Source: Clostridia bacterium (GTDB taxonomy: Bacteria; Bacillota; Clostridia; Oscillospirales; Acutalibacteraceae). Taken from it: 52,378 nucleotides of DNA. The stretch lies in contig JAFSYP010000056.1 of assembly GCA_017449935.1 (NCBI GenBank), positions 1-52,378 of the forward strand, written 5' to 3'. Position 1 is the first letter of the stretch; the number at the start of each line of letters is the position of its first letter. Below are positions 7,076 to 52,378 of this stretch, piece by piece. The position numbers and the translations under genes were made by a program. The notes below the pieces were generated by a model. The model did no database searches and was not told the DNA's origin. It saw only the letters and a list, made by a program, of their open reading frames with translations.

Positions 7076-7076
7076 A

Positions 7077-7130
7077 AAATTCGTCTCCACCTCATCAGTC
7101 GCAGTCTCGACTGCGACAGCTTCCCCAGGT
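7077..7130. repeat. Probable fragment of a dispersed intergenic repeat
   Basis: Non-coding sequence with a perfect 9-base inverted repeat (GTCGCAGTC/GACTGCGAC at 7098-7106 and 7109-7117) framed by CCACCTCATCA and CAGCTTCCCC. This arrangement resembles a short intergenic repeat I remember from gut Clostridia. Only one copy is present here, so repeat status is inferred. Confidence 0.45.
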
Positions 7131-7164
7131 TTACTCTTTTATCCTGACTTTGATAGAGAGGGTA

Positions 7165-7208
7165 CAAAAAACGACCGCCGCAGATCAGGCTTTCCCGAAC
7201 TGCGGCGG
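7165..7208 (-). terminator. Intrinsic terminator after panE
   Basis: Nine-base perfect stem CCGCCGCAG/CTGCGGCGG with a 16-base loop; on the minus strand it is followed by TCGTTTTTT. It also has T-rich sequence on the plus side and may stop transcription from the CCA gene. Confidence 0.85.
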
Positions 7209-7224
7209 TATCTCTTTTGCTCTT

Positions 7225-8247: not shown

Positions 8248-8278
8248 AGTATTCTCCTCCGTCTGTTCTGATACTCCT

Positions 8279-8307
8279 ATTGTATCGTCGACGGATTTTT
8301 TTGTCAA
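8279..8307 (-). promoter_or_regulatory. Sigma-A promoter of panE
   Basis: TTGACA (8302-8307) and TACAAT (8279-8284) on the minus strand, 17-base spacer, just past the stop codon of the upstream lipoprotein gene. Confidence 0.85.
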
Positions 8308-8319
8308 GAGGAAACAGCG

Positions 8320-9555
8320 TCATTCCACGCCCAATGTAACATAGCGGCTCAAAATCCCGTTCAGCGATTCCCTGTCCGCGTCCGACAGCTTCACGGCAAA
8401 GTCGCCCCGTGTGACGATGCCCGCGTCGGAATCGTAGCAAATGATCTCCTCATTGAGCACATCGGTCAGAATCACGTCGCTCAAATTGTCATACGGGTCG
8501 CCGAATTCCTGCGAACCGATCAGCTGCGTCACTGCCTGATTGTCCTTTGCGGACAGCGTCTTTTCTTTTCCCTGCTTGCCGGTCAGATTGGAAAAGGCGC
8601 AAATGTGATACTCCGGTTTTGCGCCCCAATACTTCATCGTCTTGTCGCCGTTTGTGAGGACGACTCTGCCGTTTTCGACGGATACGGCATACAAAACCGC
8701 GCTGCCGCCCTCTTGATTGCGGAGATACACCTTCCCGGATCGTACGATCAGGCTGTTGTCGCCGACAAAGAAGTCCGGCAGAAAGTAATTTCTGTATTCT
8801 TCCCCGCCGTCGCGCACCGTGACGCCGATCGTGTAAAGACCGGACGTCGGGCCGTACGTCAGAACGATTTCTTCCGTTTCGCCGTCCCCGTCATAATCGG
8901 CGGTGAGGATATCCAGCGCATGGGAATCGACCGTCTGCGCGTCAAAATGTTTGCAGGCTTTGATATCCGCCTTGCTGACTTCCGCCAGCACGAACCAGCC
9001 CTGCACGTCCGCCGTACAGACTTCGGGGTGGTTGAGCTGCTTGACGTACATGCACAGCGTATCCCCGTTTACGGAAACGTCCGCGATCCCGTACCGGTAG
9101 GAGCCGCTCGACGCTTTGACATAGCAGAGGATCAGCGCGCGGCTTTGGAAAAAGGCGTCGTCATATTCTGCCGCGTAACTGTCAAAGGACGGGATCTCGT
9201 CATAGCCGCGGTCAAATGTCAACGTATCGGCAAACGCCGTCTTGAAATCCTGCAACTCGCTCACGGTTTCAAACATGAACACCGGCCAGTGTTGCACAGA
9301 GCTTGTATACATCAAATCCGCGTTCAGCGCCTCGGACAGAATGCGGGTATCCCCGGAAGCGTTCGCATAGGCGACCTTCGCGGTATAGGAAAGCGATCCG
9401 CCGTCGACATTGGATACGGTCGCTTCGGGAGCCGCGCCGGAGGCTTGCGGTTCGGTCGAATACGGCGGAAAGCCGGTGCAGTGCTGCGTCCGGCCGCAGG
9501 CCGTCAAACAAACGACGATGCTCAAGCAGAGCATAAACGCGACGTGATTTTTCAT
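8320..9555 (-). CDS. Lipoprotein of unknown function with an acidic repeat-like motif
   Basis: A 411-residue surface lipoprotein I cannot assign. The signal peptide ends in the lipobox LTAC with Cys20 as the lipid-modified residue, followed by a Pro/Ser/Ala-rich linker to about residue 50. Around residue 220 ADYDGDGETEEIVLTYG resembles the Ca-binding FG-GAP/VCBS type turn (DxDGDG). The C-terminal third contains charged segments with no further membrane helix. GGGAGG lies upstream of the ATG. It sits upstream of panE and downstream of two sigma/anti-sigma pairs, and could be part of the same envelope-stress neighbourhood, but nothing in the sequence proves that. Confidence 0.85.
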   Translation of the reverse strand: MKNHVAFMLCLSIVVCLTACGRTQHCTGFPPYSTEPQASGAAPEATVSNVDGGSLSYTAKVAYANASGDTRILSEALNADLMYTSSVQHWPVFMFETVSELQDFKTAFADTLTFDRGYDEIPSFDSYAAEYDDAFFQSRALILCYVKASSGSYRYGIADVSVNGDTLCMYVKQLNHPEVCTADVQGWFVLAEVSKADIKACKHFDAQTVDSHALDILTADYDGDGETEEIVLTYGPTSGLYTIGVTVRDGGEEYRNYFLPDFFVGDNSLIVRSGKVYLRNQEGGSAVLYAVSVENGRVVLTNGDKTMKYWGAKPEYHICAFSNLTGKQGKEKTLSAKDNQAVTQLIGSQEFGDPYDNLSDVILTDVLNEEIICYDSDAGIVTRGDFAVKLSDADRESLNGILSRYVTLGVE

Positions 9556-9623
9556 AATGTCCTCCCGGCTTTTTGATTATCCTGTCATATTTTGTCCGCC
9601 TGTTCAACTGCTTTCGCTTCCGT

Positions 9624-9659
9624 AAAAACCGCGCCGAGCCGCTTCTGCAGTCCGGCGCG
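9624..9659 (-). terminator. Intrinsic terminator after the first anti-sigma-like gene
   Basis: Minus-strand stem CGCGCCG/CGGCGCG with a 16-base loop followed by GTTTTTA. Confidence 0.75.
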
Positions 9660-9671
9660 TATGCGCAAATG

Positions 9672-11060
9672 TTATTCCGGAATCGTTTGCGGTGCGGAAA
9701 CGGCGGTCGTACCGGTCTGCGATTTCGGGAACAGTTCGTTATTATACGGATTGCTTGCGGTCGGGTCCCCTGTTGTCGCGGTCGCTGTGTCCGACGCCGT
9801 GCTCGGCGTGCCGCTGTTCACTTTCCGGAGATCGTCGAACGTCACGTTATAGCTGTTTTTGAGAAATGCCGCGACGTTCTCTTTGCCGACGTTGAACAGA
9901 TACACACGACCGATAAGATTCGTTGCCACATAGCCGCTCTCGTAAACGTACATGGCTTTGTTGTTTTGCCCAAGCTCGGCAAGGTCGATGCTCAGCGTCA
10001 CCTTATCGCCTGTCGGCCAGTCGGTCGCGTTCGAGTTTTTGACGGAGCCGTCGGACAGAAGGTACCGGAAAATGTCCGCCTTATTTTGCGCGTTCACCGG
10101 GAACGTGCCGTCCTTGTACAGCCGAATGTTGCCGAAATGCACGCTGTTTCTGACGTCCGCCGCGGTCAAGAATTCGCCGAGCGACTGCGGCGTATAGTGC
10201 ACATTGACATACGGGTGGATGTGTTCCTCGCCCGGAAACTTCACGCCGACGGCAAGCGCTCTGTCGAAGTTTTGAAACACGTAAATATTCGCGCGCACGG
10301 TTTCCTCTTTGTCCGTTTTCGGATTGATGTTGCGCAGCGTATAGCCGCTGAACAACAGCGTTGCCGGCCTTGAGATATATTGGCCGCCTCGGAACGCGGC
10401 GCTGTATTCCTTGCCGAGACCGCCGGTCGGTTCAAACTGCACGGCGGGGAATTTTTCCTGCATCGTCCGCCTGTCCCAATCGGTTTCCGTGTATATTTCC
10501 GCACGCGTGGTCGCCGGCGTCGTCGCGGGATCGGCTCCGGGCGTGTTTTTAGCGGTCGACGATGCGTTCGGCGCGGTGGTCGACCGCTCCGCCGGGATCG
10601 CCACAACGGTCGTTTGCGTGTTGCCCTGTGCATCTTTGAATGTGACGACAACGCTGGAGTCCTCTTTTTGCCCTTCGGCGTTTCGTGTGATCGTGGCGAC
10701 CGTGGTGTGTTCCTTCCCCTCGCTGTCCACATAGGTGATGACCGTGGTTTCGGGAACGGCGATCGAATCGAAGCCGGACGCATCGGCGACGGTATAGACC
10801 ACGCCGTTTTCATCCGTCACCGTGATCTCGCTTTTTTGCGGCGCGTTTTTATGTCTGCCGACGCCGACCGCGACGGATACGGCGACGATCACGACGGCGG
10901 CAGACGCTGCGACGGACGCGATCGCTCTCACGTTGAACCGTTCGACCTTGTCTTCGGATTTCGGCGCGCAAACGCCCGCTTTTTCTTTGATCTCTTCCCA
11001 TTTGTCGGGAACAGCGTCATATGCCTGTCTTTTCAGCTCTTGTTCAAACTTACTTTTCAA
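9672..11060 (-). CDS. Membrane protein paired with an ECF sigma factor (probable anti-sigma/sensor)
   Basis: A 462-residue single-pass membrane protein. Residues 1-45 are hydrophilic and cytoplasmic (with a KWEEIKEKAG stretch), residues 46-66 form one membrane helix rich in Ala/Val, and the rest is outside. The outer part includes a Thr/Ala/Pro-rich linker near residues 155-190 and a globular region to residue 430. The gene overlaps the upstream ECF sigma gene by 11 bases, the usual arrangement for a sigma factor and its membrane anti-sigma regulator. No zinc-binding HxxxCxxC motif is seen in the N-terminus, so if it is an anti-sigma factor it is not the classic ZAS type. Function is inferred from context only. 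Confidence 0.7.
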   Translation of the reverse strand: MKSKFEQELKRQAYDAVPDKWEEIKEKAGVCAPKSEDKVERFNVRAIASVAASAAVVIVAVSVAVGVGRHKNAPQKSEITVTDENGVVYTVADASGFDSIAVPETTVITYVDSEGKEHTTVATITRNAEGQKEDSSVVVTFKDAQGNTQTTVVAIPAERSTTAPNASSTAKNTPGADPATTPATTRAEIYTETDWDRRTMQEKFPAVQFEPTGGLGKEYSAAFRGGQYISRPATLLFSGYTLRNINPKTDKEETVRANIYVFQNFDRALAVGVKFPGEEHIHPYVNVHYTPQSLGEFLTAADVRNSVHFGNIRLYKDGTFPVNAQNKADIFRYLLSDGSVKNSNATDWPTGDKVTLSIDLAELGQNNKAMYVYESGYVATNLIGRVYLFNVGKENVAAFLKNSYNVTFDDLRKVNSGTPSTASDTATATTGDPTASNPYNNELFPKSQTGTTAVSAPQTIPE

Positions 11061-11589
11061 AATGCTCGCCTCCCGTGTACTGCTTTCGCATTTTCCTGAC
11101 GGCGTTGTTGTATGTCCAGAATACGGTGCCTTTTGGGATATTCAGTTCCGCCGCGACCTCGGTGAGCGTCATATCGCCCAAAAGCCGCAGCAAAACAATG
11201 TTCTTCTCCCGCGCCGAAAGACCGTCCAGCATCCCGAGCGCGTCGATCTGCGTATCCGCCTGCACAGTGAAATCGTCCGCGCCGGGCATCTCCGGCATGA
11301 CCTCAAACGATTCCGTGCGGGACTGCTTTCGCTGCAGATCCACGACAAGGTTTCTGGCGACCGTGAATATCCACGCCCGGCCTTTCTCTTCGGCGCGGTA
11401 CAAGGAGGATTTACGCATGAGCGTGACGAACGTGTCCTGCATCACGTCCTGCGCGGCGTCGTAATTGCCGCACAGACGCAGCGCATAGAAAAACACGCTT
11501 TCATGCATGCCTTTGTATAATTCCTCAAGAGCGGTACCGTCTCCCGATTGAACTCTGCTCATCAAGTGATCAATTTGATGATTTGTCAT
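11050..11589 (-). CDS. ECF-type RNA polymerase sigma factor
   Basis: A 179-residue alternative sigma factor. Region 2 has DAAQDVMQDTFVTLMRK and GRAWIFTVARNLVVDLQRK; region 4 has LSAREKNIVLLRLLGDMTLTEVAAEL and a helix-turn-helix recognition helix near IPKGTVFWTYNNAVRKMRK. The start at 11589 has GGGGAG 4 bases upstream and gives MTNHQIDHLM; the longer open frame to 11703 would cover the promoter. It is translationally coupled to the downstream membrane protein and forms one of two sigma/membrane-protein pairs in a row. Its target promoters are not known. Confidence 0.9.
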   Translation of the reverse strand: MTNHQIDHLMSRVQSGDGTALEELYKGMHESVFFYALRLCGNYDAAQDVMQDTFVTLMRKSSLYRAEEKGRAWIFTVARNLVVDLQRKQSRTESFEVMPEMPGADDFTVQADTQIDALGMLDGLSAREKNIVLLRLLGDMTLTEVAAELNIPKGTVFWTYNNAVRKMRKQYTGGEHFEK

Positions 11590-11671
11590 GATCTCCCCTC
11601 CTTCAATACCAAAACGAATGAGAAAAGAAAAGTATTGGGTATTTCCAAAAAATATTTTCATTCTGCCTTCA

Positions 11672-11700
11672 ACTATACCATATCCCGCTCTTGTACACAA
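11672..11700 (-). promoter_or_regulatory. Promoter of the first ECF sigma operon
   Basis: TTGTGT (11695-11700) and TATAGT (11672-11677) with a 17-base spacer and an extended -10 TGG on the minus strand. The leader of about 75 bases is AT-rich. Confidence 0.55.
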
Positions 11701-11706
11701 CACAGG

Positions 11707-11749
11707 AAAAAACCGCCGAAGTCCTATCGCATGGATAAAACTCCGGCGG
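11707..11749 (-). terminator. Intrinsic terminator after the second anti-sigma-like gene
   Basis: Minus-strand CCGCCG/CGGCGG stem with partly paired AGT/ACT inside, followed by a run of six T. Confidence 0.8.
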
Positions 11750-11765
11750 AAAAGCAGGTATGACT

Positions 11766-12770
11766 TTACGGCGTATACGTTGCCGCGTCGTTGTAGAAGT
11801 ATTCATAGGGGTTTTCGACGCCCTCGAAGTACGCGGACACGTCCGTGCCCTGCGGATTTACGTATCGGTTGTCCGGGGTGATAATGATCTCCATAAAGCC
11901 GGCGTACACGTACAGCAGCTTTTCACCCTTGTGCGCGTTCAGAAACGCGTCGTACGCAGAGAACCACGGTCCGCCGAACGCGGGCGTCGCGGACAGCCGG
12001 CCGTTCTCTTTGGTTAGCGTGATGATGGCGACAAGCTCTCCGTCGCTGTAGGCGAGGTAGTCCCGGAAATTCTGCCTCAGTTCCAACTGCTTGCCTTCCA
12101 CGCCGTCATAGGAAACGTGGCAGTAACCGGTCTCGGAATACGTGAGGTTATCCGCCGGTACGCCGCTGGCGGCAAGCGCGGAACCGATCCATGTGTTCTC
12201 CATAAGATACGCTCTCGCCTCGGCGTCCGTGATCTTTTCGCCGACGACCTTCACGCCCGGTTGTGCGCCGGTCACCGCGGGCACGCAAGGGATCATCCAG
12301 CCGCCCAACTGCGTATCGCCGCCGTATGTTGAACCGGAACCGTCCTTCGGCTGCGCAGTGGTCGTCTCGGTCGGCTGCGGCTTCTTGGCCGGCGCCCCTG
12401 TCCGATTTGTACCCTCGTCCGGTACGCTCGCACCGCCGTAGATTTTTGTTGTCTGCGCAGCTTCTCCGCCTTGATCCGACGGGAAGACTGCCGGATCTTC
12501 GCTGACGGTCGGATCATCCGGTCGGGTGACTGCGGTTTGTTCGGCGGTGTTTTCTGCGGACACGGCCGTGCCGCTTTCGGCTTGGTTTTCGCCGCCGGCT
12601 TTGATCGGGACGCTGCCTTTCTGCGCGGCGACGCCGATCCCCACGCACAGCGCGATCGCGACAATGCCGACGCCTGCCGCGGTCAGCCGCTTCATCTTTG
12701 CGGCTTTCCGCGTTTCGTATTCGCCTTTTCTTTCCATGACAATGTCAAATACTTCATTGTTCGTCTTCAT
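11766..12770 (-). CDS. Membrane protein paired with an ECF sigma factor (probable anti-sigma/sensor)
   Basis: A 334-residue single-pass membrane protein with a short cytoplasmic part (about 30 residues, RKGEYETRKAAKMKRL), one membrane helix with GVGIVAIALCVGIGVAA, and a long outer region that opens with a Thr/Pro/Glu-rich linker to about residue 150. The outer domain has a WIGSALAASGVPADNL segment and ends NDAATYTP. It overlaps the sigma gene at 12754. I chose the ATG at 12770; the one at 12782 directly abuts the AAGG ribosome binding site. The design mirrors the pair downstream, but the two outer domains do not look alike. Confidence 0.7.
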   Translation of the reverse strand: MKTNNEVFDIVMERKGEYETRKAAKMKRLTAAGVGIVAIALCVGIGVAAQKGSVPIKAGGENQAESGTAVSAENTAEQTAVTRPDDPTVSEDPAVFPSDQGGEAAQTTKIYGGASVPDEGTNRTGAPAKKPQPTETTTAQPKDGSGSTYGGDTQLGGWMIPCVPAVTGAQPGVKVVGEKITDAEARAYLMENTWIGSALAASGVPADNLTYSETGYCHVSYDGVEGKQLELRQNFRDYLAYSDGELVAIITLTKENGRLSATPAFGGPWFSAYDAFLNAHKGEKLLYVYAGFMEIIITPDNRYVNPQGTDVSAYFEGVENPYEYFYNDAATYTP

Positions 12771-13314
12771 AGTCAAAACCATCCTTTCCGAGCTGCGATT
12801 TCAGCGCCTCGCGCGCCCGACTTAGAAGAACCTTCGTATTGCCTTCGTTCTTATGCATGATCTTAGCGATCTCCGCAACTTTTTGATTTTCAAAGTAGCG
12901 CAGCCACAACGCCGTATAATACTCCGCTTTCAGTTTTTTCATGGAAGATACGACATGCCGATTTCTTTCGTCCGTTATGTACTGCGCCTCCGGAGACGGC
13001 TTGTCCGACGTCACATCGTCGATCTCTTCCATGCTGACGGCGCTGTGCTTTTTCTGCCGTCTCACATAGTCCGTCGCCGTATTGCGGCCGATGCAAAACA
13101 GCCACGTTTTAAAGGACGCCTTGCCGTTATACCGCGGCTTTTTGGTTGCCAGTTTCACAAAGGTTTCGATCGCCGCCTCTTCGGCGGTGTCCGCATCTTG
13201 AACGAAGGACAGAATGAACATTTCCAGCGGCATACGGTATTCTTCGATCAGTTCCCTGAGTCCTGCTTCGTCACCCAGGAGAAAACGGCGGTAGCTACTT
13301 GCACCGTTATCCAT
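12754..13314 (-). CDS. ECF-type RNA polymerase sigma factor
   Basis: A 186-residue sigma-70 family factor. Region 2 covers EEYRMPLEMFILSFVQDADT with AEEAAIETFVKLATKK and KTWLFCIGRNTATDYVRRQKK. Region 4 covers KLKAEYYTALWLRYFENQKV and a recognition helix MHKNEGNTKVLLSRAREALK. GGAG precedes the ATG at 13314. It overlaps its downstream membrane partner by 17 bases. A TATAAT lies about 50 bases upstream of the start, but its -35 (TTACCT) is poor for sigma-A, so autoregulation from an ECF-type promoter is possible. Confidence 0.9.
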   Translation of the reverse strand: MDNGASSYRRFLLGDEAGLRELIEEYRMPLEMFILSFVQDADTAEEAAIETFVKLATKKPRYNGKASFKTWLFCIGRNTATDYVRRQKKHSAVSMEEIDDVTSDKPSPEAQYITDERNRHVVSSMKKLKAEYYTALWLRYFENQKVAEIAKIMHKNEGNTKVLLSRAREALKSQLGKDGFDYEDEQ

Positions 13315-13406
13315 AGGGGTCTCCTTTCCGAAAGAGCGGTCTTCCGTTGCCCTTTCACTTATTATACGCATAAACCGCGGAAAAGGTAACAGTTTTTGCA
13401 CGGAAA

Positions 13407-13424
13407 CCGTGATGAACCAAAAAA
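13407..13424. repeat. 18-base direct repeat, copy 1 (next to the thrS terminator)
   Basis: CCGTGATGAACCAAAAAA occurs here and identically at 32657-32674. In both places the six A form the T-tract of a minus-strand terminator. This suggests that terminator and flank are parts of a mobile or recombining intergenic module. Confidence 0.6.
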
Positions 13425-13462
13425 CGGGACCGTACTGTGCGTATTCTGCACAGACAGTCCCG
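13419..13462 (-). terminator. Intrinsic terminator after thrS
   Basis: Minus-strand CGGGAC/GTCCCG stem with an inner GTGC/GCAC pair and a run of six T. Confidence 0.88.
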
Positions 13463-13486
13463 AAAGCATATGCGGTCAAAGCCGGT

Positions 13487-15430
13487 TTACCAGATCACTT
13501 TTTCTGCCGTTTCACGCAGCGCGAGCGCCGTGAACTCCGCTTCGCTCATGGAGCCCATGTCGCCGCCGCTCCTGCGCCGGACGGAAAGGTTTTCCTCCTC
13601 GATCTCCTTATCGCCGACGAGCAGCATATAGGGAATCTTTTCCTTCTGCGCCTCGCGGATCTTGTAGCCGATCTTCTCCGAGCGCATGTCGGTCGTCACG
13701 CGGAAGCCGAGCGCGGCCAGGCGTTTCTCCACCTCGCGGGCGTACGGCTGGTGGCGGTCGGCGATCGGCAGCAGGCGTATCTGTTCGGGCGCCAGCCACA
13801 GCGGGAACGCGCCGGCGTACTTCTCGATCAGCAGCGCGAGCGTGCGCTCATAGCAGCCGATCGACGTTCTGTGGATGATATAGGGATTCTTCTTGCTGCC
13901 GTCTGTATCGACGTATTCCATGCCGAATTTTTCGGCGAGCATCTGGTCGACCTGGATCGTGATGAGCGTGTCTTCCTTGCCGAATACGTTCTTGATCTGG
14001 ATGTCGAGCTTCGGGCCGTAGAACGCCGCTTCGCCGACGCCGATCTTGTATGGGATCTCCAGATGGTCGAGGATCTTCTGCATCACGCCCTGCGCCTCGT
14101 CCCACTGCTCGTTCGTGCCGATATACTTTTCGCGGTCGTTCGGGTCCCACTGTGAGAAGCGGTACGAAACGTCCTCGTACAGGCCGAGCGTCTTGAGCAT
14201 ATAGATCGCCAGCTCCAGACAGTTGCGGAACTCGCCCTCCAGCTGGTCGGGCGTGCACATCAGATGGCCCTCGGAGATCGTGAACTGACGCACGCGAATC
14301 AGACCGTGCATCTCGCCGGACGCCTCGTTGCGGAAGAGCGTCGAGGTTTCGTTGTAGCGCAGCGGCAGATCGCGGTAGGAACGCGCGCGGTTGAGGTACG
14401 CCTGGTACTGGAACGGGCAGGTCATCGGACGCAGCGCGAACACTTCGTCCTCCGAGTCGGGATCGCCCATCACGAACATGCCGTCGCGGTAATGGTCCCA
14501 GTGGCCGGAGAGCTTGTAGAGATCGCTCTTGGCCATGTACGGCGTCTTGGTCAGCAGCCAGCCTCTGCGCTGCTCCTCGTCCTCGACGAAGCGCTGCAGG
14601 ATCTGGATGACGCGCGCGCCCTTCGGCAGCAGGATCGGCAGGCCCTGGCCGATCAGCTCGGACGTCGTGAAATATTCCAGCTCGCGGCCGAGCTTGTTGT
14701 GGTCGCGCTTTTTCGCTTCTTCGACCGCGGCGAGGTGCGCTTCCATCTCGTCCTTTTTGGTGAAGGCGGTACCGTAAATGCGCTGGAGCATCTTGTTTTT
14801 GGAGTCGCCGCGCCAGTACGCGCCGGTCGCGCTCGTGAGCTTGAACGCCTTGACGCGGCCCGTATCCGGGATATGCGGTCCGGCACACAGCTCGTCGAAC
14901 TCGCCCTGGCGGAAGAAGGAGATCTTTTCGCCCTTGCCGGCGTGCTCCTGAATGAGCTCGACCTTATAGATCTCGCCCTTCTCAGTCATCATGGCAATCG
15001 CCTCGTCCGCGTCCAGCTCGTACCGTTCGAGCGGCAGACCTTCCTTGACGATTTTTTTCATCTCGCCCTCGATCTTTTCAAGCATTTCGGGCGTGAAGGG
15101 CGTGTCGATATCGAAGTCATAGTAGAAGCCGTTTTCGATCGCGGGACCGATGGCGAGCTTCGCCTCGGGGTACAGACGCTTGACCGCCTGCGCGAGGATG
15201 TGGGACGCGGTGTGTCGGAACGCGTGCTTGCCTTCGGGATCGTCGAACGTGAGGATCTCAAGCGCGCAGTCCTGCGTCAGCGCCGTGCGCAGATCGCAGA
15301 CGACGCCGTCCACCTTGCACACGCACGCCGCCTTGTACAGTCCCATGCCCAGGGATTTTGCGACCTCCATCGCGGTGACGCCGTTTTCATACTCTTTGAT
15401 GACGCCGCCTTTGAGTTTGACCTGGATCAT
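13487..15430 (-). CDS. thrS: Threonine-tRNA ligase
   Basis: Class II aminoacyl-tRNA synthetase that charges tRNA-Thr. The 647-residue protein has a TGS domain at the N-terminus (MIQVKLKGG), the editing domain with HTASHILAQAVKRL, the catalytic core with RPMTCPFQYQAY and an EASGEMHGLIRVRQF motif 2, and the anticodon-binding C-terminus. The start at 15430 has AGGAG 8 bases upstream. An N-terminal extension to 15475 would overlap the leader terminator and is rejected. Expression is controlled by the T-box leader upstream. All expected domains are intact. Confidence 0.97.
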   Translation of the reverse strand: MIQVKLKGGVIKEYENGVTAMEVAKSLGMGLYKAACVCKVDGVVCDLRTALTQDCALEILTFDDPEGKHAFRHTASHILAQAVKRLYPEAKLAIGPAIENGFYYDFDIDTPFTPEMLEKIEGEMKKIVKEGLPLERYELDADEAIAMMTEKGEIYKVELIQEHAGKGEKISFFRQGEFDELCAGPHIPDTGRVKAFKLTSATGAYWRGDSKNKMLQRIYGTAFTKKDEMEAHLAAVEEAKKRDHNKLGRELEYFTTSELIGQGLPILLPKGARVIQILQRFVEDEEQRRGWLLTKTPYMAKSDLYKLSGHWDHYRDGMFVMGDPDSEDEVFALRPMTCPFQYQAYLNRARSYRDLPLRYNETSTLFRNEASGEMHGLIRVRQFTISEGHLMCTPDQLEGEFRNCLELAIYMLKTLGLYEDVSYRFSQWDPNDREKYIGTNEQWDEAQGVMQKILDHLEIPYKIGVGEAAFYGPKLDIQIKNVFGKEDTLITIQVDQMLAEKFGMEYVDTDGSKKNPYIIHRTSIGCYERTLALLIEKYAGAFPLWLAPEQIRLLPIADRHQPYAREVEKRLAALGFRVTTDMRSEKIGYKIREAQKEKIPYMLLVGDKEIEEENLSVRRRSGGDMGSMSEAEFTALALRETAEKVIW

Positions 15431-45139: not shown

Positions 45140-46573
45140 TTATTCCTCTTCCGCCCGGTGTGCGGCAAGCTCGGCGTGCACCGTTTCCAGCTTCTTTTTG
45201 GACAGATCGTACCCCGCAAAGAGGATGACCGCCATAAGCGCGAGCATGATCGCCGGCACAAGCGTGGAGATGTCATAGAGCTTCGAGAGGACGCTCTCGC
45301 TAAGGCCGATCCCCTGTTTGGACAGCTCGCCGTCGTACGCGATCACGGCCAGCAGCGCGTTCAGCCCGACGCCGGCGAGCGTCTGGCCGAGCTTGCGCGT
45401 AAAGGAGAACACAGCGTACGCCATCCCCTCTTCCCGCTTGCCGGTGCGCACCTCATAGTAGTCGATCGTGTCCATCACGAGCGCCCACACCTCCAGCACG
45501 AGGAAGGTCTGGCCGAGGCCGGAGAAGAAGGTGAACGCCAGGAACACGGTCGAATTGTGCGCGAGCGCGGTGCCTCTGAGCGCAAACAGGATCAGATTGA
45601 CCGCGGCGGCAAACGCCATACCGACGGCGCACAGCTCCTTTTTGCCGAACTTCCTGATGAGCCTGTTCATCACGGGGATGAAGATCGCCATGGGCCCATA
45701 GGTGCAGATCGTGACGAACGCGTACAGACCGGGTTTGCCGTAATAGTCCGTAAAGAGATAGGTATACGTGGACTGATAGTAGAACTGGAAGGCGATCAGC
45801 AGCATGGAGGCAAGGCAGAGCGTGACGAACGCGCGGTTCCCGAACAGCTCGCGGACCGTTGTGACCGCGCTGTAATCCTTGCCCTTGATATGCTTCTGCG
45901 GGGCGATCCTTTCCTTCGTCAGTTTGTAATGCAGAAAGTATACGCCGACCGACACGACGGCAAGGACCAGAACGCACCAAAACAGCTTCGTTTCGTCGAG
46001 CGCCTTGATGTCCGTCCCGTTGGCGTATTTCCCCGTCACGGTGTAAACGATCATCGGCAGCACGATGGTGCCGGGCAGTCCGCCGACGCCGGCGCCGATC
46101 GAGCGCCACATGGACAGGGAAGACCGCTCGAACTCATCGTCCGTCACCACGGACGCGAGCGAACCGTACGGGATATTGACCGCCGTATACATCATCCCGT
46201 ACAGGATATACGTCACATAGGCGTAGATCAGGTATTTCGTTTCCGAAAGGCCGGGGATCTTCAGGAACATGAGCGCCGCGGCGATTGCCAGCGGCACGGA
46301 AAAGCCTAATATCCACGGGCGGAACTGCCCCTTCGGATTCGGCTTTCTCGACTGGATGAACGCGCCCCACAGCGGATCGTTTATCGCGTCCCAGATGCGG
46401 GCGATCAGGATCAGAACGACGATCTTGCCCGGGCTGATGCCGAGCGCATCCGTATAGAATTTGTTTTGAAAAGCGCCGATCAGCGAAAAGGTCAGCAGGC
46501 CTCCCGCGTCGCCCAAGGCATAGCCGATCTTGTCCTTGAGCCGGATGCCGTGCGTTTGCGGAGCAGTTGCCAT
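45140..46573 (-). CDS. GPH-family sugar:cation symporter (probable sulfoquinovose/sulfoquinovosyl-glycerol importer)
   Basis: A 477-residue membrane protein of the glycoside-pentoside-hexuronide symporter family with about twelve helices. The N-terminus carries KIGYALGDAGGLLTFSLIGA and RIWDAINDPLWGAFIQSRK, typical of the family to which E. coli YihO and YihP of the sulfoquinovose cluster belong. AGGAG is 8 bases before the ATG. It is the last gene of the operon, 20 bases after the TauE gene. Cargo is inferred from operon partners. Confidence 0.88.
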   Translation of the reverse strand: MATAPQTHGIRLKDKIGYALGDAGGLLTFSLIGAFQNKFYTDALGISPGKIVVLILIARIWDAINDPLWGAFIQSRKPNPKGQFRPWILGFSVPLAIAAALMFLKIPGLSETKYLIYAYVTYILYGMMYTAVNIPYGSLASVVTDDEFERSSLSMWRSIGAGVGGLPGTIVLPMIVYTVTGKYANGTDIKALDETKLFWCVLVLAVVSVGVYFLHYKLTKERIAPQKHIKGKDYSAVTTVRELFGNRAFVTLCLASMLLIAFQFYYQSTYTYLFTDYYGKPGLYAFVTICTYGPMAIFIPVMNRLIRKFGKKELCAVGMAFAAAVNLILFALRGTALAHNSTVFLAFTFFSGLGQTFLVLEVWALVMDTIDYYEVRTGKREEGMAYAVFSFTRKLGQTLAGVGLNALLAVIAYDGELSKQGIGLSESVLSKLYDISTLVPAIMLALMAVILFAGYDLSKKKLETVHAELAAHRAEEE

Positions 46574-46593
46574 GATTATTTCTCCTATCATTT

Positions 46594-47325
46594 TCATTTC
46601 AGAAACAGCGAAACACCGCTGATGAGCATGAGGATATACGTCAGATACAGGAACGCTTTGCGGCTGAGCTTTTTGGCGACGAAGCTGCCGACGACGAGTG
46701 CTGCCGCAAGCGCCGCCGCGCTGAAGGCCGTGAGCCGGACGACGTCCGGCGTGAACGATCCGGCGGCAAGATCCGCGCCGAACAGAATACCGTTGAGCAA
46801 TATCCACACGGCGCTGAGCGTCCCGCGGAACGCGTCCTTGCTTTGCAGCCTGCCGCTCGCATACGTCACCAGCAGCGGCCCGCCGCAGACGAACAGTCCG
46901 TGCACTACGCCGGCAGATACCAGCAGCAGCGCCGACACGGGCGCGGGCAGCCGCACGTCCTCCTTATGCATAAGGAGCTTGGCGGCATTCATCACGGCGA
47001 ACGCGATCACGATCGCGCCGAGCAGACCGTACAGCAGCGTCGGATCGCCCGCCACATACGGCTTGAGCGCCATGCCCGCGACCAGTCCCAAAAGCATGAC
47101 GCCGGTCATCTTCAAAAGCTCCCTGCGGTCGATCTGCCGCAAGCAGAAGCACACAACGTACACGGACGCCAGAAGCCCCAGCACGTTCAGCACGGGCTTT
47201 GCCGTGTCGTACCCGACGAGCAGGACGGAAAACGGCATCGCCAGCACCGTACCGGCAAAGCCGGTGACGCACTGGATGACGTTCGTGAGAAAGACGACGA
47301 GCAGGAACAGAAGCTGTCTGCCCAT
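46594..47325 (-). CDS. TauE/SafE family exporter (probable sulfonate exporter)
   Basis: A 243-residue membrane protein with about eight helices. The N-terminal NVIQCVTGFAGTVLAMPFSV pattern and the central GVVHGLFVCGGPLLVTYASG repeat match the TauE/SafE family of organosulfonate and sulfite exporters. In sulfoglycolysis clusters such a protein exports DHPS or sulfolactate. It overlaps the isomerase stop by one base (TAATG). The assignment to DHPS export rests on context. Confidence 0.88.
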   Translation of the reverse strand: MGRQLLFLLVVFLTNVIQCVTGFAGTVLAMPFSVLLVGYDTAKPVLNVLGLLASVYVVCFCLRQIDRRELLKMTGVMLLGLVAGMALKPYVAGDPTLLYGLLGAIVIAFAVMNAAKLLMHKEDVRLPAPVSALLLVSAGVVHGLFVCGGPLLVTYASGRLQSKDAFRGTLSAVWILLNGILFGADLAAGSFTPDVVRLTAFSAAALAAALVVGSFVAKKLSRKAFLYLTYILMLISGVSLFLK

Positions 47326-48668
47326 CAGTACGCCTCGACCGGCACGCCGAGCATATGGCCGAGCGCCGTCACGGCGTCGGCAATATCGCCGAACGCCACG
47401 GCAAAATGCGGTTCCCAGCCGTCCCGCACGGCCGTTTCCACGAGCGCACGCGCGTCGCTGTCCGTGCGCACCACGACCGAAACGCCGCTGAACTGTTTCG
47501 GCTTATCGAGCGCTTCCCCGCGTGCCAAAAAGAAACGGAAGCCGCCGTCCGGCCTTCTGCCGATGCGAAAGACCGTGACCTTCTCCGCACGTTCGCAGCC
47601 GAATTCGAGCACAGGACCGATCCCGCGGTTGCAGTGCAGGCCGGCGCAAGCGCCCGTATCCGTGCGCGCGAGCGAACACGGCGCCATGCCGCAGTGCCAG
47701 AACGTCACGGTGTTTTCATTTTCATCCAGCGAAACGGGATCGCCGAAAAACGCGCTCTTTCCCGTAAGGAACGACGCGACGTACATCGAAAGCGCGCCGT
47801 ATGCGTCCGCTTCGCACGCGCTCGCGACGCCCAGATCGTTGAGCAGACTCAGCGCCGCACAGACGGGCGTGCCGAACGCCGTAAAGAAATCCGGCCAGCA
47901 GCGGCTCGCGAGCGCGCCGATCCGATGCGCGCGCACATAGTCGGCGTACGCCGCGTACAACCGCGCGAAATCGCGCACGTTCTGTTCCGGAAGGCCGTCC
48001 AGACCGCGTATCCTGCCGCGCGCGTCGTCGAGCGCCGCTTCGATCCGTTCGTCGGAACACGCTTTGGCATCTTCGATCAGCTCGCGCGCCTCAACGGATT
48101 CGAGCCGCACGCCGAACGTGCGCAGCATCTCGCCGTCGAGCGCTCGGCCGAAGCCGAAGCCCTGCGGCGTATGGCCGACCTGTAAAAGGCGCAGCTCGCG
48201 CATCGCCTTTTTCATACGCGCCGCCGCAAAAACGGCGGAAACGGCGGACTGTACCCGCGCTTCGTCGGGCGAACCGAAGACGTATTCAAACGGCCGACCG
48301 AACGACTTGAGCGTATTCGCGGCGGAAAACGCGCCGGTCAGGGAATTCAGGCGCAGCCGCGTGCCGTCGACGACCGGTTCGCGCAGCGTCCACAGCAGGA
48401 TCGGGCAGTCCAGCCGCCGCAGGATCTCGCTGATATACGCGGCGTTCGCAAAGGTCACGTTCTGCACGATGGCAAAATCGGCGCATCTGCCTTCCAAAAA
48501 CGCGTCGAGCTTGTCGACGCTCAGCAGCATTTCCTGCGGGCATACGACGTCCGGCTCGAACGTCTTCAGCAGCGCGGCGCTTTTTTGAAACAGCGCTTCG
48601 GCGCTCGGCAGATGAAAGGTGCCCACGCCGATGGGCAGATAGATCGCTTGAAACTCCACGGCGTTCAA
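47325..48668 (-). CDS. Sugar isomerase of the L-fucose/L-arabinose isomerase type (probable sulfoquinovose isomerase)
   Basis: A 447-residue cytoplasmic protein. It has an N-terminal Rossmann-like region (PIGVGTFHLPSAEALFQKSA, then a FEPDVVCPQE segment), and a C-terminal part with ENENTVTFWHCGMAPCSLAR that resembles the C-terminal domain of fucose/arabinose isomerases (cf. xxFxHCG). In the sulfo-TAL pathway the first step, sulfoquinovose to sulfofructose, is done by such a distant isomerase (called SftI/SqvD). Metal ligands could not be fixed by eye. It overlaps the dehydrogenase gene by four bases. Confidence 0.75.
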   Translation of the reverse strand: MNAVEFQAIYLPIGVGTFHLPSAEALFQKSAALLKTFEPDVVCPQEMLLSVDKLDAFLEGRCADFAIVQNVTFANAAYISEILRRLDCPILLWTLREPVVDGTRLRLNSLTGAFSAANTLKSFGRPFEYVFGSPDEARVQSAVSAVFAAARMKKAMRELRLLQVGHTPQGFGFGRALDGEMLRTFGVRLESVEARELIEDAKACSDERIEAALDDARGRIRGLDGLPEQNVRDFARLYAAYADYVRAHRIGALASRCWPDFFTAFGTPVCAALSLLNDLGVASACEADAYGALSMYVASFLTGKSAFFGDPVSLDENENTVTFWHCGMAPCSLARTDTGACAGLHCNRGIGPVLEFGCERAEKVTVFRIGRRPDGGFRFFLARGEALDKPKQFSGVSVVVRTDSDARALVETAVRDGWEPHFAVAFGDIADAVTALGHMLGVPVEAY

Positions 48669-49528
48669 CCTCCGATCCCGTTGACGATCTTGTAGGTGGC
48701 GCGGAAATCCTCCTTGCCGAGTCCCATTTCCATGCCTTTATCATAGACGGCCTTGCAGTGCTGCAGTCCGGGCATCGGGCATCCGGCTTCGGCGGCGAGA
48801 CGCTGCGCGATGCCGAGATCCTTATGCTCGTTCTCCAGTGAGAACGCCGTCGTCCAGTTTTCGTTTTTCAGATTCTCTTTCTGGGATTCCAGATAGAAAT
48901 TGCCTGCGCCGCCGTAGGAAACGGCCGTGGCAAAATCGTCGATCGAAACGCCGAGCTTCCGCGCCAGACCGAGCGTTTCGTTCACGCCGTTCTGGATCTC
49001 GGCGACCAGCGTGTTGTGGCAGATCTTCATCGTGATGCCCGCGCCGCATTCGCCCATGCGGATCACGTTGCAGCCCATATACCTGAGGATCGGCTCGATC
49101 ACGGGATACAGATCCGCGTCGCAGCCGACGAGCACGCCCAGCGTCCCGGCAATGGCCGCGGGCTTGGATTTGACGACCGGCGCGTCCGCCCACTGCGCTC
49201 CCTTCGTCTTGACCATACGCGCGCACTCGAGCGAGACTGCCGGATCGATCGTGCTCATGTCGATGCAGATCTTGCCTTCGCCGATATACGGCAGGATCTC
49301 GGTATAGACCGCTTTGACATGCTCCGATCTCGGCACCATGGTGAGGATGACGTCGGCGTTTTGCGCGACTTCGGAATTGTCCGCGCACCCGACCGCGCCG
49401 AGCGAAGCGAGCTTTTCGACCTGCGCGCGGTTCAGGTCCGAAACGTAAACGCGGCCGTCATGCTTGCGGACGATGTTCTCCGCCATGGACTCGCCCATGA
49501 CGCCCAGTCCGATAAATCCGATCTTCAT
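48665..49528 (-). CDS. 3-hydroxyisobutyrate dehydrogenase family (probable sulfolactaldehyde reductase, YihU type)
   Basis: A 287-residue NAD(P)H-dependent beta-hydroxyacid dehydrogenase. The Rossmann motif GFIGLGVMGESMAENIV, the MSTIDPAVS segment and the catalytic Lys168 in GAGITMKICHN are present. E. coli YihU, the sulfolactaldehyde reductase, is in the same family. Where I recall Arg123 of YihU, this protein has Lys120 (PVVKSK), so the sulfonate pocket may differ or the cofactor/substrate may vary. In the operon it would reduce sulfolactaldehyde to dihydroxypropanesulfonate and recycle NAD. It starts 3 bases after the transaldolase stop. Confidence 0.82.
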   Translation of the reverse strand: MKIGFIGLGVMGESMAENIVRKHDGRVYVSDLNRAQVEKLASLGAVGCADNSEVAQNADVILTMVPRSEHVKAVYTEILPYIGEGKICIDMSTIDPAVSLECARMVKTKGAQWADAPVVKSKPAAIAGTLGVLVGCDADLYPVIEPILRYMGCNVIRMGECGAGITMKICHNTLVAEIQNGVNETLGLARKLGVSIDDFATAVSYGGAGNFYLESQKENLKNENWTTAFSLENEHKDLGIAQRLAAEAGCPMPGLQHCKAVYDKGMEMGLGKEDFRATYKIVNGIGG

Positions 49529-49531
49529 GCT

Positions 49532-50221
49532 TTATGCCTCCGTGATCGTATTGTCCCACGCCGCCTGGAATTTTTGCAGGCCGTAATCCGTGAACGGATG
49601 GTAGAAGCTGTCCTTGAACACCTGCAGGCCGGCGGTCACGATGTCCGCGCCCGCGACGGCGCAGTCCACGATCTGCTTGCCGTTGCGCACGGCGGCGCAG
49701 ATGATCTGCGTCTTGCCGAGATAATCATAGTTTTCATAAATCTCCACAATGTCGCGGATATAGTCGACGCAGTCCTCGCCGCTGTTCTCCTTCCAGCCGA
49801 TGAAGGGCGAGACGAACAGCGAGCCGTTCTTTGCGGCGATCAGCGCCTGCGACGCGGAAAAGACCAACGTCAGGTTGGTGCGAACGCCCTTCTGCTCGAG
49901 CCGGCGCGCCGCGGCGATCCCGGCCTCGGTGCAGGGGATCTTGATGACGAAGCTCTTGCTCATGGCGGAGATCTTTTCCGCCATGGCGATCATGGCGTCC
50001 GCGTCGTCCAGATGGGGGTCGATCTCCACCGACACGGGGAAAGTCTCCCAGCCTTCGATCCCCTTTTCGCGGACAAACGCGGCCAGCTCGGCGATCACCG
50101 TGTAAAACGGCTTGCCGCTGTTCATGATATGGTTCGGGTTGGTCGTCACGCCGTCGATCCCGAAGGCGTCGTACGCTTCGCGGATCTCGTCGATCTTTGC
50201 GGAATCAAGAAAGTATTTCAT
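49532..50221 (-). CDS. sftT: Transaldolase family protein (probable sulfofructose transaldolase)
   Basis: A 229-residue transaldolase of the small TalC/fructose-6-phosphate aldolase-like type. Catalytic residues visible are Asp6 (FLDSAKI), Asn28 (TTNPN) and the Schiff-base Lys94 (FVIKIPCTEAG). In the sulfo-TAL pathway this class transfers the glycerone unit of 6-deoxy-6-sulfofructose to glyceraldehyde 3-phosphate, giving fructose 6-phosphate and sulfolactaldehyde. The start overlaps the GH31 gene by 17 bases. The family is certain; the sulfo-substrate is inferred from neighbours. Confidence 0.85.
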   Translation of the reverse strand: MKYFLDSAKIDEIREAYDAFGIDGVTTNPNHIMNSGKPFYTVIAELAAFVREKGIEGWETFPVSVEIDPHLDDADAMIAMAEKISAMSKSFVIKIPCTEAGIAAARRLEQKGVRTNLTLVFSASQALIAAKNGSLFVSPFIGWKENSGEDCVDYIRDIVEIYENYDYLGKTQIICAAVRNGKQIVDCAVAGADIVTAGLQVFKDSFYHPFTDYGLQKFQAAWDNTITEA

Positions 50222-52214
50222 TACGGATCTCCTCCATTATTTCTATCCATTCCGGATGGATGCTTTTACGATAAAAAACCGGTATCCTGCCGATCGGCGA
50301 TGCGACCGTATGCAGTCCGCCGCCGTATTCCCTGTCGGTCGACAGCTCGATCCATTCATCCCGCGGCAGATAGACCTGCCTGCGGACGGCGCTCTTTCGC
50401 AGCACCGGCGCGACCAGAACGTCGCGTCCGAGCAGATACTCCGTGCTTTCTGTATAAGCGCGCGCCTCGTCGTAGTAAAAGAACAGCGGACGCACGACGC
50501 CGACGCCGCGTTCGGCATTCTCCGCGACTGCCGCGCGCAGATACGGCTTCAAAAGGCGGTGGACGCGGCTCATCTTCGCCTGATGCCGAAGCACGGCTTC
50601 GCTCGCGTCAAACTGCGCGTTGAGGTCGGGATTGTTGCCCTCGTGGCTGCGCAGCATGGGCGAAAAGGCGTTCATCTCGCACCAGCGCATATACAGCTCC
50701 TCGCTGCGGCGCATCCTGCCGAACGTGGTGTAGCCGCCCGTGTCGGAATGGCTCAGCCCGAAGCCGCTGCACGTCAGCGACAGCATGGCGGGGATCACGG
50801 ACGGCATCCCGTTGTCGACGGAAAAATCGACGTGGTTGTCGCCGTTCCACATCATGGTGGAGTACCGCGGCGTGCCGGAGAAGCCGGCCCTTGTGAAAAA
50901 GAAAATGTCGCCGAGCCTTCCGGCTTCTTCCAGAGCCTCGCGGTTGAGCTTCGCCCAACGCGCGGGCCAGGTGTTGTGGACCAGCTCCGCCTGCTCGCCG
51001 CTGTGCAGCACGCAGTCGGTCGGCAGATACTCGCCGAAGTCCGCCATCCAGCCCGAAAGGCCGAAGTCGATCATATTGCGCCGGATGACCGCCTTGAGCC
51101 AGTTCCACGCGTCGGGATTGGTCAGATCCACCATCGCCGCGGGGAACGTGGTGATGGTGACGAGATAGTCCTTGCCGTCCCTGTCCTTGACGCAGTAGCC
51201 CTTTGCGCTCGCTTCCTTGTACAGCGGCTTCTCGATGGCGAGGAAGGGATTGCAGTAGCCCAGCACGCGGATGTTCTGCGCGGCAAGATCGGCGATCGCC
51301 TGATCGAGGTCCGGGTACAGCTCCCTGTCCCAGTCCCAGTTCCACATCAGCTGCTTGCCGAACGCGGTCACGCGGCGGCCTTCCCAGTCCTGTATCCACA
51401 CGCCGGCGACCGGCATGCCGCACGAAAGGCAGCGTTCGACCTTGCGCAGCATGGTCTGCGTGCCTCCTTGTATGCCGAGGATCGCGCCGTCATACGTCCA
51501 GTCGGGCAGCTCCGGCGGCCGGCCGAGCAGATCGGTCAGCCCCTCCAGAACGTCCTCGAAGCTGTCGCCGAAAACGAAGCTGAACGGCCCGACGCTGTCC
51601 ATCCGCAGGACGTGCCGGTCGGGTTTCGTGAAATCGAAAACGCAGCGCGCCGTCGTCTGCGCGTGGAACGCGTACTTCCGGCTCGACAGGAAGGTCGGCT
51701 GCGCGTAATACGTTTCATAGTTGGAAAACTTCTGCTTGCGGTCGGCGACGGACAGGCCGAATTTGATCTTGAGAAACTTCTTCGATAGCATCTTCGCGTT
51801 CTGATGCTCCGCGACCCAGACGTTGACCTTCTGTCCGCGCAGATCGAATTCGCTGAACGTTTCGCCCGTGCCGTAGACGTGCTCTGCGGCCGCGGCGGGC
51901 AGCGTCAGAACGAGGCGGTTGTACCGGTCGAGCCCCTCGAAGCGAACCGTCAGCCGGTCGCCGCACACGGAAAGGATCGCGCGTCCCTCGTCGAAGCGCA
52001 GCACAGCCTCGGCGCCGTCGAGCGCGGCGTCGCGGACGATCAACGGATGATCTGTATAGTTCTTTTCCCGGATGGTGAAGCTGCCGCGCGTCATGGAAAA
52101 GCAGTTCTCGCCGTTCCCGGCGCGCAGCGGCGCCGAGCCTTTGGGAATCGTGCGGACGCATCTGCCGCCGCGCAGCAAAAGCAGATCGCCGCCCTGTATG
52201 GAAAACCGAAGCAT
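50205..52214 (-). CDS. yihQ: Sulfoquinovosidase-like GH31 alpha-glucosidase (YihQ type)
   Basis: A 669-residue cytoplasmic glycosidase that would release sulfoquinovose from sulfoquinovosyl glycerol. It follows E. coli YihQ closely with a constant offset of 13: nucleophile Asp392 (YihQ 405) in GWMADFGEYLPTD, acid/base Asp459 (472) in WNGDNHVDFS, and sulfonate-pocket residues Gln249, Gln275, Trp291 and Tyr495. At the position of YihQ Arg301 the protein has Gln288 (FGKQLMWNW). GAGGG precedes the ATG at 52214. It is the first gene visible in the operon; a dispersed repeat lies just upstream. Confidence 0.88.
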   Translation of the reverse strand: MLRFSIQGGDLLLLRGGRCVRTIPKGSAPLRAGNGENCFSMTRGSFTIREKNYTDHPLIVRDAALDGAEAVLRFDEGRAILSVCGDRLTVRFEGLDRYNRLVLTLPAAAAEHVYGTGETFSEFDLRGQKVNVWVAEHQNAKMLSKKFLKIKFGLSVADRKQKFSNYETYYAQPTFLSSRKYAFHAQTTARCVFDFTKPDRHVLRMDSVGPFSFVFGDSFEDVLEGLTDLLGRPPELPDWTYDGAILGIQGGTQTMLRKVERCLSCGMPVAGVWIQDWEGRRVTAFGKQLMWNWDWDRELYPDLDQAIADLAAQNIRVLGYCNPFLAIEKPLYKEASAKGYCVKDRDGKDYLVTITTFPAAMVDLTNPDAWNWLKAVIRRNMIDFGLSGWMADFGEYLPTDCVLHSGEQAELVHNTWPARWAKLNREALEEAGRLGDIFFFTRAGFSGTPRYSTMMWNGDNHVDFSVDNGMPSVIPAMLSLTCSGFGLSHSDTGGYTTFGRMRRSEELYMRWCEMNAFSPMLRSHEGNNPDLNAQFDASEAVLRHQAKMSRVHRLLKPYLRAAVAENAERGVGVVRPLFFYYDEARAYTESTEYLLGRDVLVAPVLRKSAVRRQVYLPRDEWIELSTDREYGGGLHTVASPIGRIPVFYRKSIHPEWIEIMEEIRNEILS

Positions 52215-52235
52215 AGAATACCCTCAAGCGTTTTT

Positions 52236-52378
52236 TCAAGGCAATACCGCACAATTCCGGTGTGCGGTTTGCGAAGCAAGATTTTTCGTCAGGTTGTACA
52301 AAAAGCTCGAAGGCTTGCTGACGCAAGTCAAGAGATTTTTGTGCAGCATGACGGAATAAGATTCGAGCAAGGCGTGCA
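52236..52378. repeat. Probable dispersed intergenic repeat upstream of the sulfoglycolysis operon
   Basis: A non-coding stretch to the window edge that starts with a hairpin ACCGCACA/TGTGCGGT (52246-52253 and 52261-52268) and continues with AT-rich segments such as GATTTTTCGTCAGGTTG. Read on the minus strand its frames give peptides (DEKSCFANRTPELCG) that I remember as recurring hypothetical fragments in gut Clostridia. The multi-copy nature cannot be shown in this window, and no promoter for the operon was recognised in it. Confidence 0.6.

Follow-up and report, generated by a model that had tools for sequence, protein, structure and literature searches.

Our comparative analysis of contig JAFSYP010000056.1 from an uncultured Clostridia bacterium of the Acutalibacteraceae, whose whole 52,378 nucleotides we call the window, identifies six minus-strand genes at 45140-52214 as a putative operon for the fermentative breakdown of sulfoquinovose (SQ) by the transaldolase branch of sulfoglycolysis (sulfo-TAL), a reading to which we assign a probability of about 0.88. 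It represents a slimmed-down variety of the sulfo-TAL type, without the SftX gene, the ROK-family regulator gene and the upstream palindrome carried by most of the sampled relatives. The route of the pathway is known, and the variant aspects are the slim gene set and a sulfoquinovosidase (SQase) clade without the usual arginine. Few organic sulfur compounds are more abundant than SQ, and the 2,3-dihydroxypropane-1-sulfonate (DHPS) from its fermentation feeds gut bacteria that form hydrogen sulfide (PMC12890257, PMC11968277).

Gene layout and core enzymes

All six open reading frames (ORFs) of the original prediction were recovered at their positions and on the minus strand, and recomputing the junctions returned the same spacings of -17, +3, -4, -1 and +20 bases. 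Five of the six gene starts have a Shine-Dalgarno-like stretch just upstream, as read from the sequence, and five of the six proteins score above their Pfam cut-offs, the sixth, the isomerase, matching an NCBIfam model at E 2.3e-120. This layout is consistent with one operon whose genes are probably co-transcribed. Along the proposed pathway, the GPH symporter would bring SQ or SQ-glycerol into the cell, the GH31 enzyme would release SQ from its glycoside, and a FucI-like metal isomerase would convert SQ to sulfofructose (SF). In the next step the transaldolase would form a Schiff base on its lysine 94 and pass the C1-C3 glycerone unit of SF to glyceraldehyde-3-phosphate, yielding sulfolactaldehyde (SLA) together with fructose-6-phosphate, which would enter glycolysis. 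The dehydrogenase would then use NADH to reduce SLA to DHPS, and the TauE/SafE permease would carry DHPS out of the cell. Chance ORFs were considered and rejected on the profile matches and the conserved linkage; long plus-strand ORFs, themselves unsearched, lie opposite the genes (for example at 49016-50623).

This arrangement recurs among relatives. A scan of named genomes, from which the best 80 of 133 loci were kept, found the transaldolase, dehydrogenase and isomerase near-complete together in 68; the other 12 were dropped for an incomplete copy of one of these genes, and the 68 with the window make up the 69 operons analysed. Of the 68, 66 also carry a TauE or GPH gene and 59 a GH31 gene on the upstream side of the transaldolase; all six genes are present in 50, many of the rest being cut by contig ends. 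Published sulfo-TAL (sulfo-SFT) clusters from Eubacterium rectale, Clostridium symbiosum, Enterococcus gilvus, Bacillus megaterium and B. aryabhattai (PMC11968277, PMC11489063, PMC9594981, PMC12890257) have counterparts of the window's candidate SQase, SQ isomerase, SF transaldolase and candidate transporter and, in the anaerobes, of its candidate SLA reductase; the genes listed for E. gilvus include a TauE gene, as in the window.

Central to the sulfo-TAL reading is the putative 6-deoxy-6-sulfofructose (SF) transaldolase of SftT/SqvA type (49532-50221, minus strand, 229 amino acids (aa)). Among the 52 solved sequences that it matched, the top three are all BmSF-TAL (E 6e-90 to 1e-86, the best being 8bc3 at 6.3e-90), followed by a fourth at 1.6e-42, and the pairwise alignment with BmSF-TAL has 143 of 222 positions identical (64%). 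The two proteins share the named active-site residues and differ by seven additional residues in the window protein, which has two short insertions. In BmSF-TAL, a triad of D6, K89 and E61 is accompanied by N111 and S133, which orient the sugar, and by a WAR motif for the sulfonate (PMC11659671); the motif was taken as W138, A170 and R172, the first named in that paper and the other two assigned by our alignment. The window counterparts are D6, K94 and E66, then N116 and S138, and, for the motif, W143, A177 and R179. These catalytic, sugar-orienting and sulfonate residues are identical in 68 of 68 related loci and in 10 of 10 more distant SF-type proteins, and ordinary transaldolases from the same taxonomic family (41-45% identity) have R/S/R at the motif in six of six cases.

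The candidate SQ isomerase of the SftI/SqvD family (47325-48668, minus strand, 447 aa from TTG) matches the NCBIfam SftI model NF048012 over 441 positions with 402 bits. Its residues E286, D310 and H421, which by analogy with FucI we take to be candidate metal ligands, show no variation across all 20 aligned sequences, that of the window among them. The Pfam fucose-isomerase model scored 28.5, just short of its cut-off of 29.3, and the search of solved structures by sequence returned no match apart from one at chance level (E 0.65). At the start of the gene, GGAGG abuts the TTG at 48668, and a GTG at 48659, three codons on, has a 9-base spacing; the 444-aa protein read from this GTG begins with MEFQAIYLPIGV, in agreement with the consensus MxFxxxYIPIGV of its relatives. 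The GTG is probably the true start, in which case the dehydrogenase-isomerase junction becomes a gap of 5 bases instead of an overlap of 4.

Placement of the isomerase or the transaldolase outside the known sulfoglycolysis clades had been named as the outcome that would speak against the original prediction, and neither was found there: the nearest solved relative of the transaldolase is an SF transaldolase with the same sulfonate residues, the isomerase has a full-length SftI match, and both are, by these comparisons, members of sulfo-TAL enzyme families. The one PF00923 match found in the assembly is this transaldolase, which speaks in favour, since the gene is then not a spare copy. Weighing on the other side, the isomerase score lies under the curated NF048012 cut-off of 700, and a lone transaldolase may have a part in central metabolism as well. 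Many different sugars are handled by FucI-like isomerases and FSA-type transaldolases, and the low scores of the isomerase and, as described below, of the reductase against curated cut-offs would also fit an operon for another sugar in which the sulfosugar likeness is incidental; given the W/A/R motif, BmSF-TAL as the nearest solved protein, and a YihQ-family GH31 gene beside an SftI-family isomerase gene in one operon, we regard this as the least probable of the readings weighed here.

The GH31 glycosidase

The first gene (50205-52214, minus strand, 669 aa) encodes a GH31 family glycosidase that is a candidate SQase of a 'QQQWY' clade. Its score is 760 bits on NCBIfam NF007746 (PRK10426; cut-off 553), which we take to be the yihQ model, its best solved match is YihQ (E 4e-185, 45% identity), and the nearest solved proteins are SQases. 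The nucleophile D392 and the acid/base D459 (YihQ D405 and D472) are kept in 56 of 56 operon sequences, window included, and so are Q249, Q275, W291 and Y495 (YihQ Q262, Q288, W304 and Y508), the last two presumably lining the sulfonate pocket. Weighing against a plain assignment is the site of YihQ R301, which we take to be the sulfonate-binding arginine and which Speciale in 2016 and Abayakoon in 2018 are said to have described in that role: arginine stands there in each solved SQase aligned (YihQ 5aed, E. rectale SftG 6pnr, A. tumefaciens 5ohy, and 8r56, which is named only as GH31), whereas the window has glutamine (Q288), as do all 56 operon sequences. The wider alignment of 84 GH31 sequences reads Q at this site in 78, R in four, and is cut there in two. 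The earlier description as a YihQ-like sulfoquinovosidase thus holds for the catalytic residues and the family score, but not for arginine 301, and we have not filed the enzyme as a YihQ-type SQase, since it appears YihQ-like by score without the arginine feature.

These observations were extended with a GH31 tree of 57 proteins, made by a quick method with support from the SH-aLRT branch test only. Its 39 SQase-like rows include an arginine clade of 10 rows (support 99), which holds YihQ, and a glutamine clade of 28 rows (support 98), which holds the window and one long-branched row (L186), the partial glutamine row L167 being unplaced; the remaining 18 rows are GH31 proteins with mixed letters at the R301 site. 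On this tree the glutamine clade appears as a well-supported sister of the arginine-bearing SQases. A set of 27 alignment positions separates 27 glutamine-clade rows from the 10 arginine-clade rows, with H137, N139, K146, F324, T441 and H461 fixed in the former and ITTFPAA replacing the block around FGE. Compared with YihQ, SftG, the A. tumefaciens SQase and 8r56, the window enzyme has in common the catalytic aspartates and the pocket tryptophan and tyrosine, and it differs in Q288 in place of arginine, with H137, K146, H461 and the ITTFPAA block setting its clade apart. A comparable residue change is described in another SQase family, GH188 (PMC11465081), and a literature search of limited coverage on these pocket residues of sulfoquinovosidases, which says little, found no paper.

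The glutamine in 56 of 56 sequences and the clade-separating positions, with the change from FGE to ITT, speak for an alternative in which the core pathway is still sulfo-TAL but simple SQ glycosides are not what the GH31 enzyme acts on; its substrate would be a plain alpha-glucoside or a sulfoglycoside of altered form, and SQ would arrive free or from other microbes. This alternative is unlikely in view of the conserved W291, Y495, Q249, Q275 and both catalytic aspartates, the NF007746 score (though this model also passes proteins without the pocket residues), the usual position of the GH31 gene upstream of the transaldolase, and the ability of glutamine to donate hydrogen bonds to a sulfonate. 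Action as a sulfoquinovosidase is the likeliest reading of the GH31 sequence, and one that we consider highly probable. An SQase clade lacking this arginine is relevant to the identification of yihQ genes in surveys of the rumen. Other GH31 proteins of the same order (L178-L185 and L187-L189) score 567-652 bits on NF007746, above its cut-off, without the tryptophan, the tyrosine and most pocket residues, so the cut-off alone is no proof of an SQase.

Reductase, transporters and end product

The candidate SLA reductase (48665-49528, minus strand, 287 aa; Pfam PF03446/PF14833) belongs to the beta-hydroxyacid dehydrogenase family and is 31.6% identical to E. coli YihU. Of four YihU positions that we take to be functional, K171, N175 and K240 are retained (K168, N172 and K236 in the window protein) and R123 is replaced by lysine (K120) in all 69 operons, that of the window among them; the YihU loop GRTSA reads VKSKP in the window protein. 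Its family and context suggest SLA as the substrate. The profile scores weigh against this assignment: the NCBIfam SLA-reductase model NF012005 gives 150 bits (cut-off 348) and is outscored by the PRK11559, HIBADH and tartronate semialdehyde reductase models, all under their own cut-offs. As a 2-hydroxy-3-oxopropionate reductase the protein reaches 179 bits, also under the NCBIfam cut-off, and YihU is eighth among its solved matches (E 2e-31), behind other hydroxyacid dehydrogenases.

The TauE/SafE family permease (46594-47325, minus strand, 243 aa; Pfam PF01925, 57.5 bits, cut-off 32.6) is a candidate DHPS exporter, and the GPH family symporter (45140-46573, minus strand, 477 aa; NCBIfam TIGR00792, 295 bits, cut-off 231) is a candidate importer of SQ or its glycerol glycoside, both by family and context, the GPH protein being about equally distant from YihO (27.5%) and YihP (27.0%). 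The statement of the original prediction that every step is covered is borne out as to the presence of the YihU-type, TauE/SafE and GPH families, and is softened by the SLA-reductase score under its cut-off and by the assignment of import and export from context.

DHPS is the expected end product, and it may in turn feed sulfidogens. In an extended form of the pathway, as in E. gilvus, HpfG would dehydrate DHPS and the product would be 3-hydroxypropanesulfonate or 3-sulfopropionate. The assembly has one glycyl-radical enzyme that we found, with NGCNQ at the candidate active-site cysteine, which is a point in favour of that route, but its gene (L153) lies on another contig (C71), and its 620-residue piece, cut N-terminally from a 724-residue frame, scores 286 bits on HpfG and 306 bits on HpsG (cut-offs 1000) and best on the general PFL2 model. 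HpfG was not recognised in this 87%-complete assembly, which falls short of proving its absence, and we consider the extension very unlikely. More improbable still is a route of the kind found in Faecalicatena or rumen Caproiciproducens, bifurcated or transketolase-based and ending in isethionate. Sulfo-TK genes have been described in rumen Clostridia, in some cases alongside SftT (PMC13219744). However, no transketolase (SqwGH), isomerase of SqwI type or reductase of SqwF type is encoded among the six genes, to which the search for SqwGH was confined, and a YihU-family reductase is present here, whereas an SLA reductase gene is lacking in rumen Caproiciproducens according to the same paper.

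Slim and full operon layouts

Across the 69 operons, SftX (DUF4867) is present in 47 and missing in 22, with the window among the latter; tblastn returned no SftX match in the window, and there is no room for the gene between the six. The SftX-bearing operons of gut Clostridia (L070, L090, L105 and others) have the six genes in the order of the window with three additions: SftX, inserted between the reductase and isomerase genes; a ROK gene, between TauE and GPH; and the palindrome, upstream. Where the ROK status could be judged (62 operons), 40 have both SftX and ROK, 19 have neither, three have SftX without ROK, and none has ROK without SftX. The window stands outside this count, its TauE-GPH gap being 20 bases and the usual ROK place empty. 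The same slim six-gene layout is found in the other operon of its genus (G571).

The palindrome is a 21-base element, TTRATTAAC-N3-GTTAATYAA, which was sought in 64 operons upstream of the first gene with up to three mismatches. It occurs in 33 of 36 operons with SftX and ROK (20 perfect; carriers include L070, L072, L083, L085, L086, L090 and L095), in two of eight rows with SftX and without ROK (L084 and L097, both on contigs that stop short of the ROK position), and in none of the 20 SftX-less rows, including the window, which contributed only 164 bases. As the element was derived from the SftX-bearing class, its frequency there is circular, and the test lies in its absence from the other class and in the shuffle control, in which 40 shuffles of each of 35 sites gave none as good. 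It is missing in three of the 36 operons with both genes, and a match with four mismatches occurs in two of the 20 SftX-less ones, which weighs against a strict association. Because the palindrome goes with the ROK gene, the ROK protein may be its binder and the palindrome a candidate operator, which would make it a testable target for a regulator of the sulfo-TAL pathway; a literature search of the same limited coverage for a link between sulfoquinovose and the ROK family found no paper. No copy within three mismatches was found anywhere in the window. The leader (52215-52378, upstream of the minus-strand genes and cut by the contig end) instead holds an inverted repeat, ACCGCACA-CCGGAAT-TGTGCGGT, at 52246-52268, which places it 32-54 bases ahead of the first gene; nothing corresponding was found in the upstream region of the same-genus relative L069.

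In a tree of joined transaldolase, dehydrogenase and isomerase proteins, the SftX label needs three changes, forced by the starred branches, and SftX presence thus appears to have changed at least three times. A single-clade origin of the 22 SftX-less operons was rejected by the approximately unbiased test (p 2.5e-64, for a group named after the tree was seen and on a quick tree). The direction was presumably loss rather than gain, the tree being unrooted. One operon (L111) was scored as SftX-bearing on about 107 matching residues only. Isomerase residues typical of all three SftX-less groups but uncommon elsewhere, which would hint at an enzyme adapted to the loss, were not found at the thresholds used.

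Several results weigh against a tight coupling of these losses. The coupling of SftX and ROK loss comes down to three independent pairs; nearly every pairing gives three agreements out of three, which does not reach significance (median p 0.25). Three operons (L073, L098 and L104) keep SftX with no ROK gene within reach, and two more distant loci (L162 of G791 and L165 of G683) are without SftX in the 16-20 kb read yet each has a ROK gene (32% and 28% identity, respectively), so the link is weaker outside the 69-operon sample. Against the sulfo-TAL reading itself stands the lack of SftX, which is missing from the operon and gave no match (PF16161) in the 87%-complete assembly of the window, a search that was positive in nine of 15 genomes. 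The assembly does hold two aldose-epimerase-family genes elsewhere, and the place of SftX could thus be taken by a mutarotase encoded at another locus.

Relative to the published sulfo-TAL clusters, the window has no SftX/SqvB (DUF4867), no regulator in the operon and an SQase of another clade. SftX/SqvB is found in the majority of published clusters (PMC9594981), and being common rather than universal or defining, its lack is no bar to sulfo-TAL membership; the legend of the E. gilvus cluster does not list SqvB either, and SftX-less clusters may therefore already be in print. The function of SftX is enigmatic, with mutarotase and kinase activity not detected (PMC11968277), and its homologue SqvB is a proposed SQ ring opener (PMC9594981). 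Together, our observations suggest, tentatively and at slightly less than even odds, a minimal sulfo-TAL operon from which SftX, the ROK repressor and the operator have gone together, running without the proposed ring opener and free of repression, combined with an SQase clade that holds the sulfonate without arginine, perhaps through Q288 with H461, H137 or K146. The SftX-less operons, occurring in at least three places of the tree beside close SftX-bearing kin, offer matched pairs for measuring the need for SftX.

As to the original description of the operon as complete, the six genes are indeed present, but the operon is without SftX or any regulator, and the window, a whole contig from a 2.95-Mb assembly, ends 164 bases from the first gene, with anything upstream unseen, so completeness is not demonstrated. 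A promoter scan found four candidates against 2.0 expected, the one ahead of the first gene overlapping its start codon, a terminator scan found 15 against 8.3 expected, and an Rfam search gave zero matches. G+C content at third codon positions is 0.79-0.86 in the six genes and 0.83-0.84 in two nearby plus-strand genes (DNA ligase and MATE transporter candidates, judged from their translations without a database search), so composition shows no sign of recent foreign origin. The flanks of 19 slim operons were compared, with no gene cluster common to more than three, so that the six genes look like a self-contained unit in largely unrelated surroundings; none of ten flank proteins searched against Pfam belongs to a regulator or mutarotase family, and two had no match at all.

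Related operons are sparsely spread. In the taxonomic family, 19 of 300 genomes match at E <= 1e-40, 13 of these (that of the window included) being at least 60% identical and the next 45%; in the genus two of 11 match; and at E 1e-70 the class sample gave six of 391 and the phylum sample two of 398, the genome of the window itself being counted in each of these scans. Goat, sheep, horse, deer, reindeer or water buffalo are named in 23 of the 80 record titles. Among loci outside the six-gene layout, one (L036 in G237, 6518-13914) has a glutamine-clade GH31 gene, an isomerase 27% identical, SftX at 42%, TauE and GPH, with no SF transaldolase match in the 20 kb read, and is perhaps another sulfoglycolysis type. 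Three others (L061 7269-9957, on a contig shared with L146, L062 9359-12050 and L141 515-3206) hold an overlapping pair of GH31 and SF transaldolase genes as in the window, without an isomerase or reductase match in the 11-20 kb read, and two more (L100 and L129) have a similar pair in sequence that ends just after the transaldolase. At L071 (7291-7980, by Pfam match) and L113 (5302-6003, by similarity), the GH31 and transaldolase genes are separated by a gene of the peptidase S51 family.

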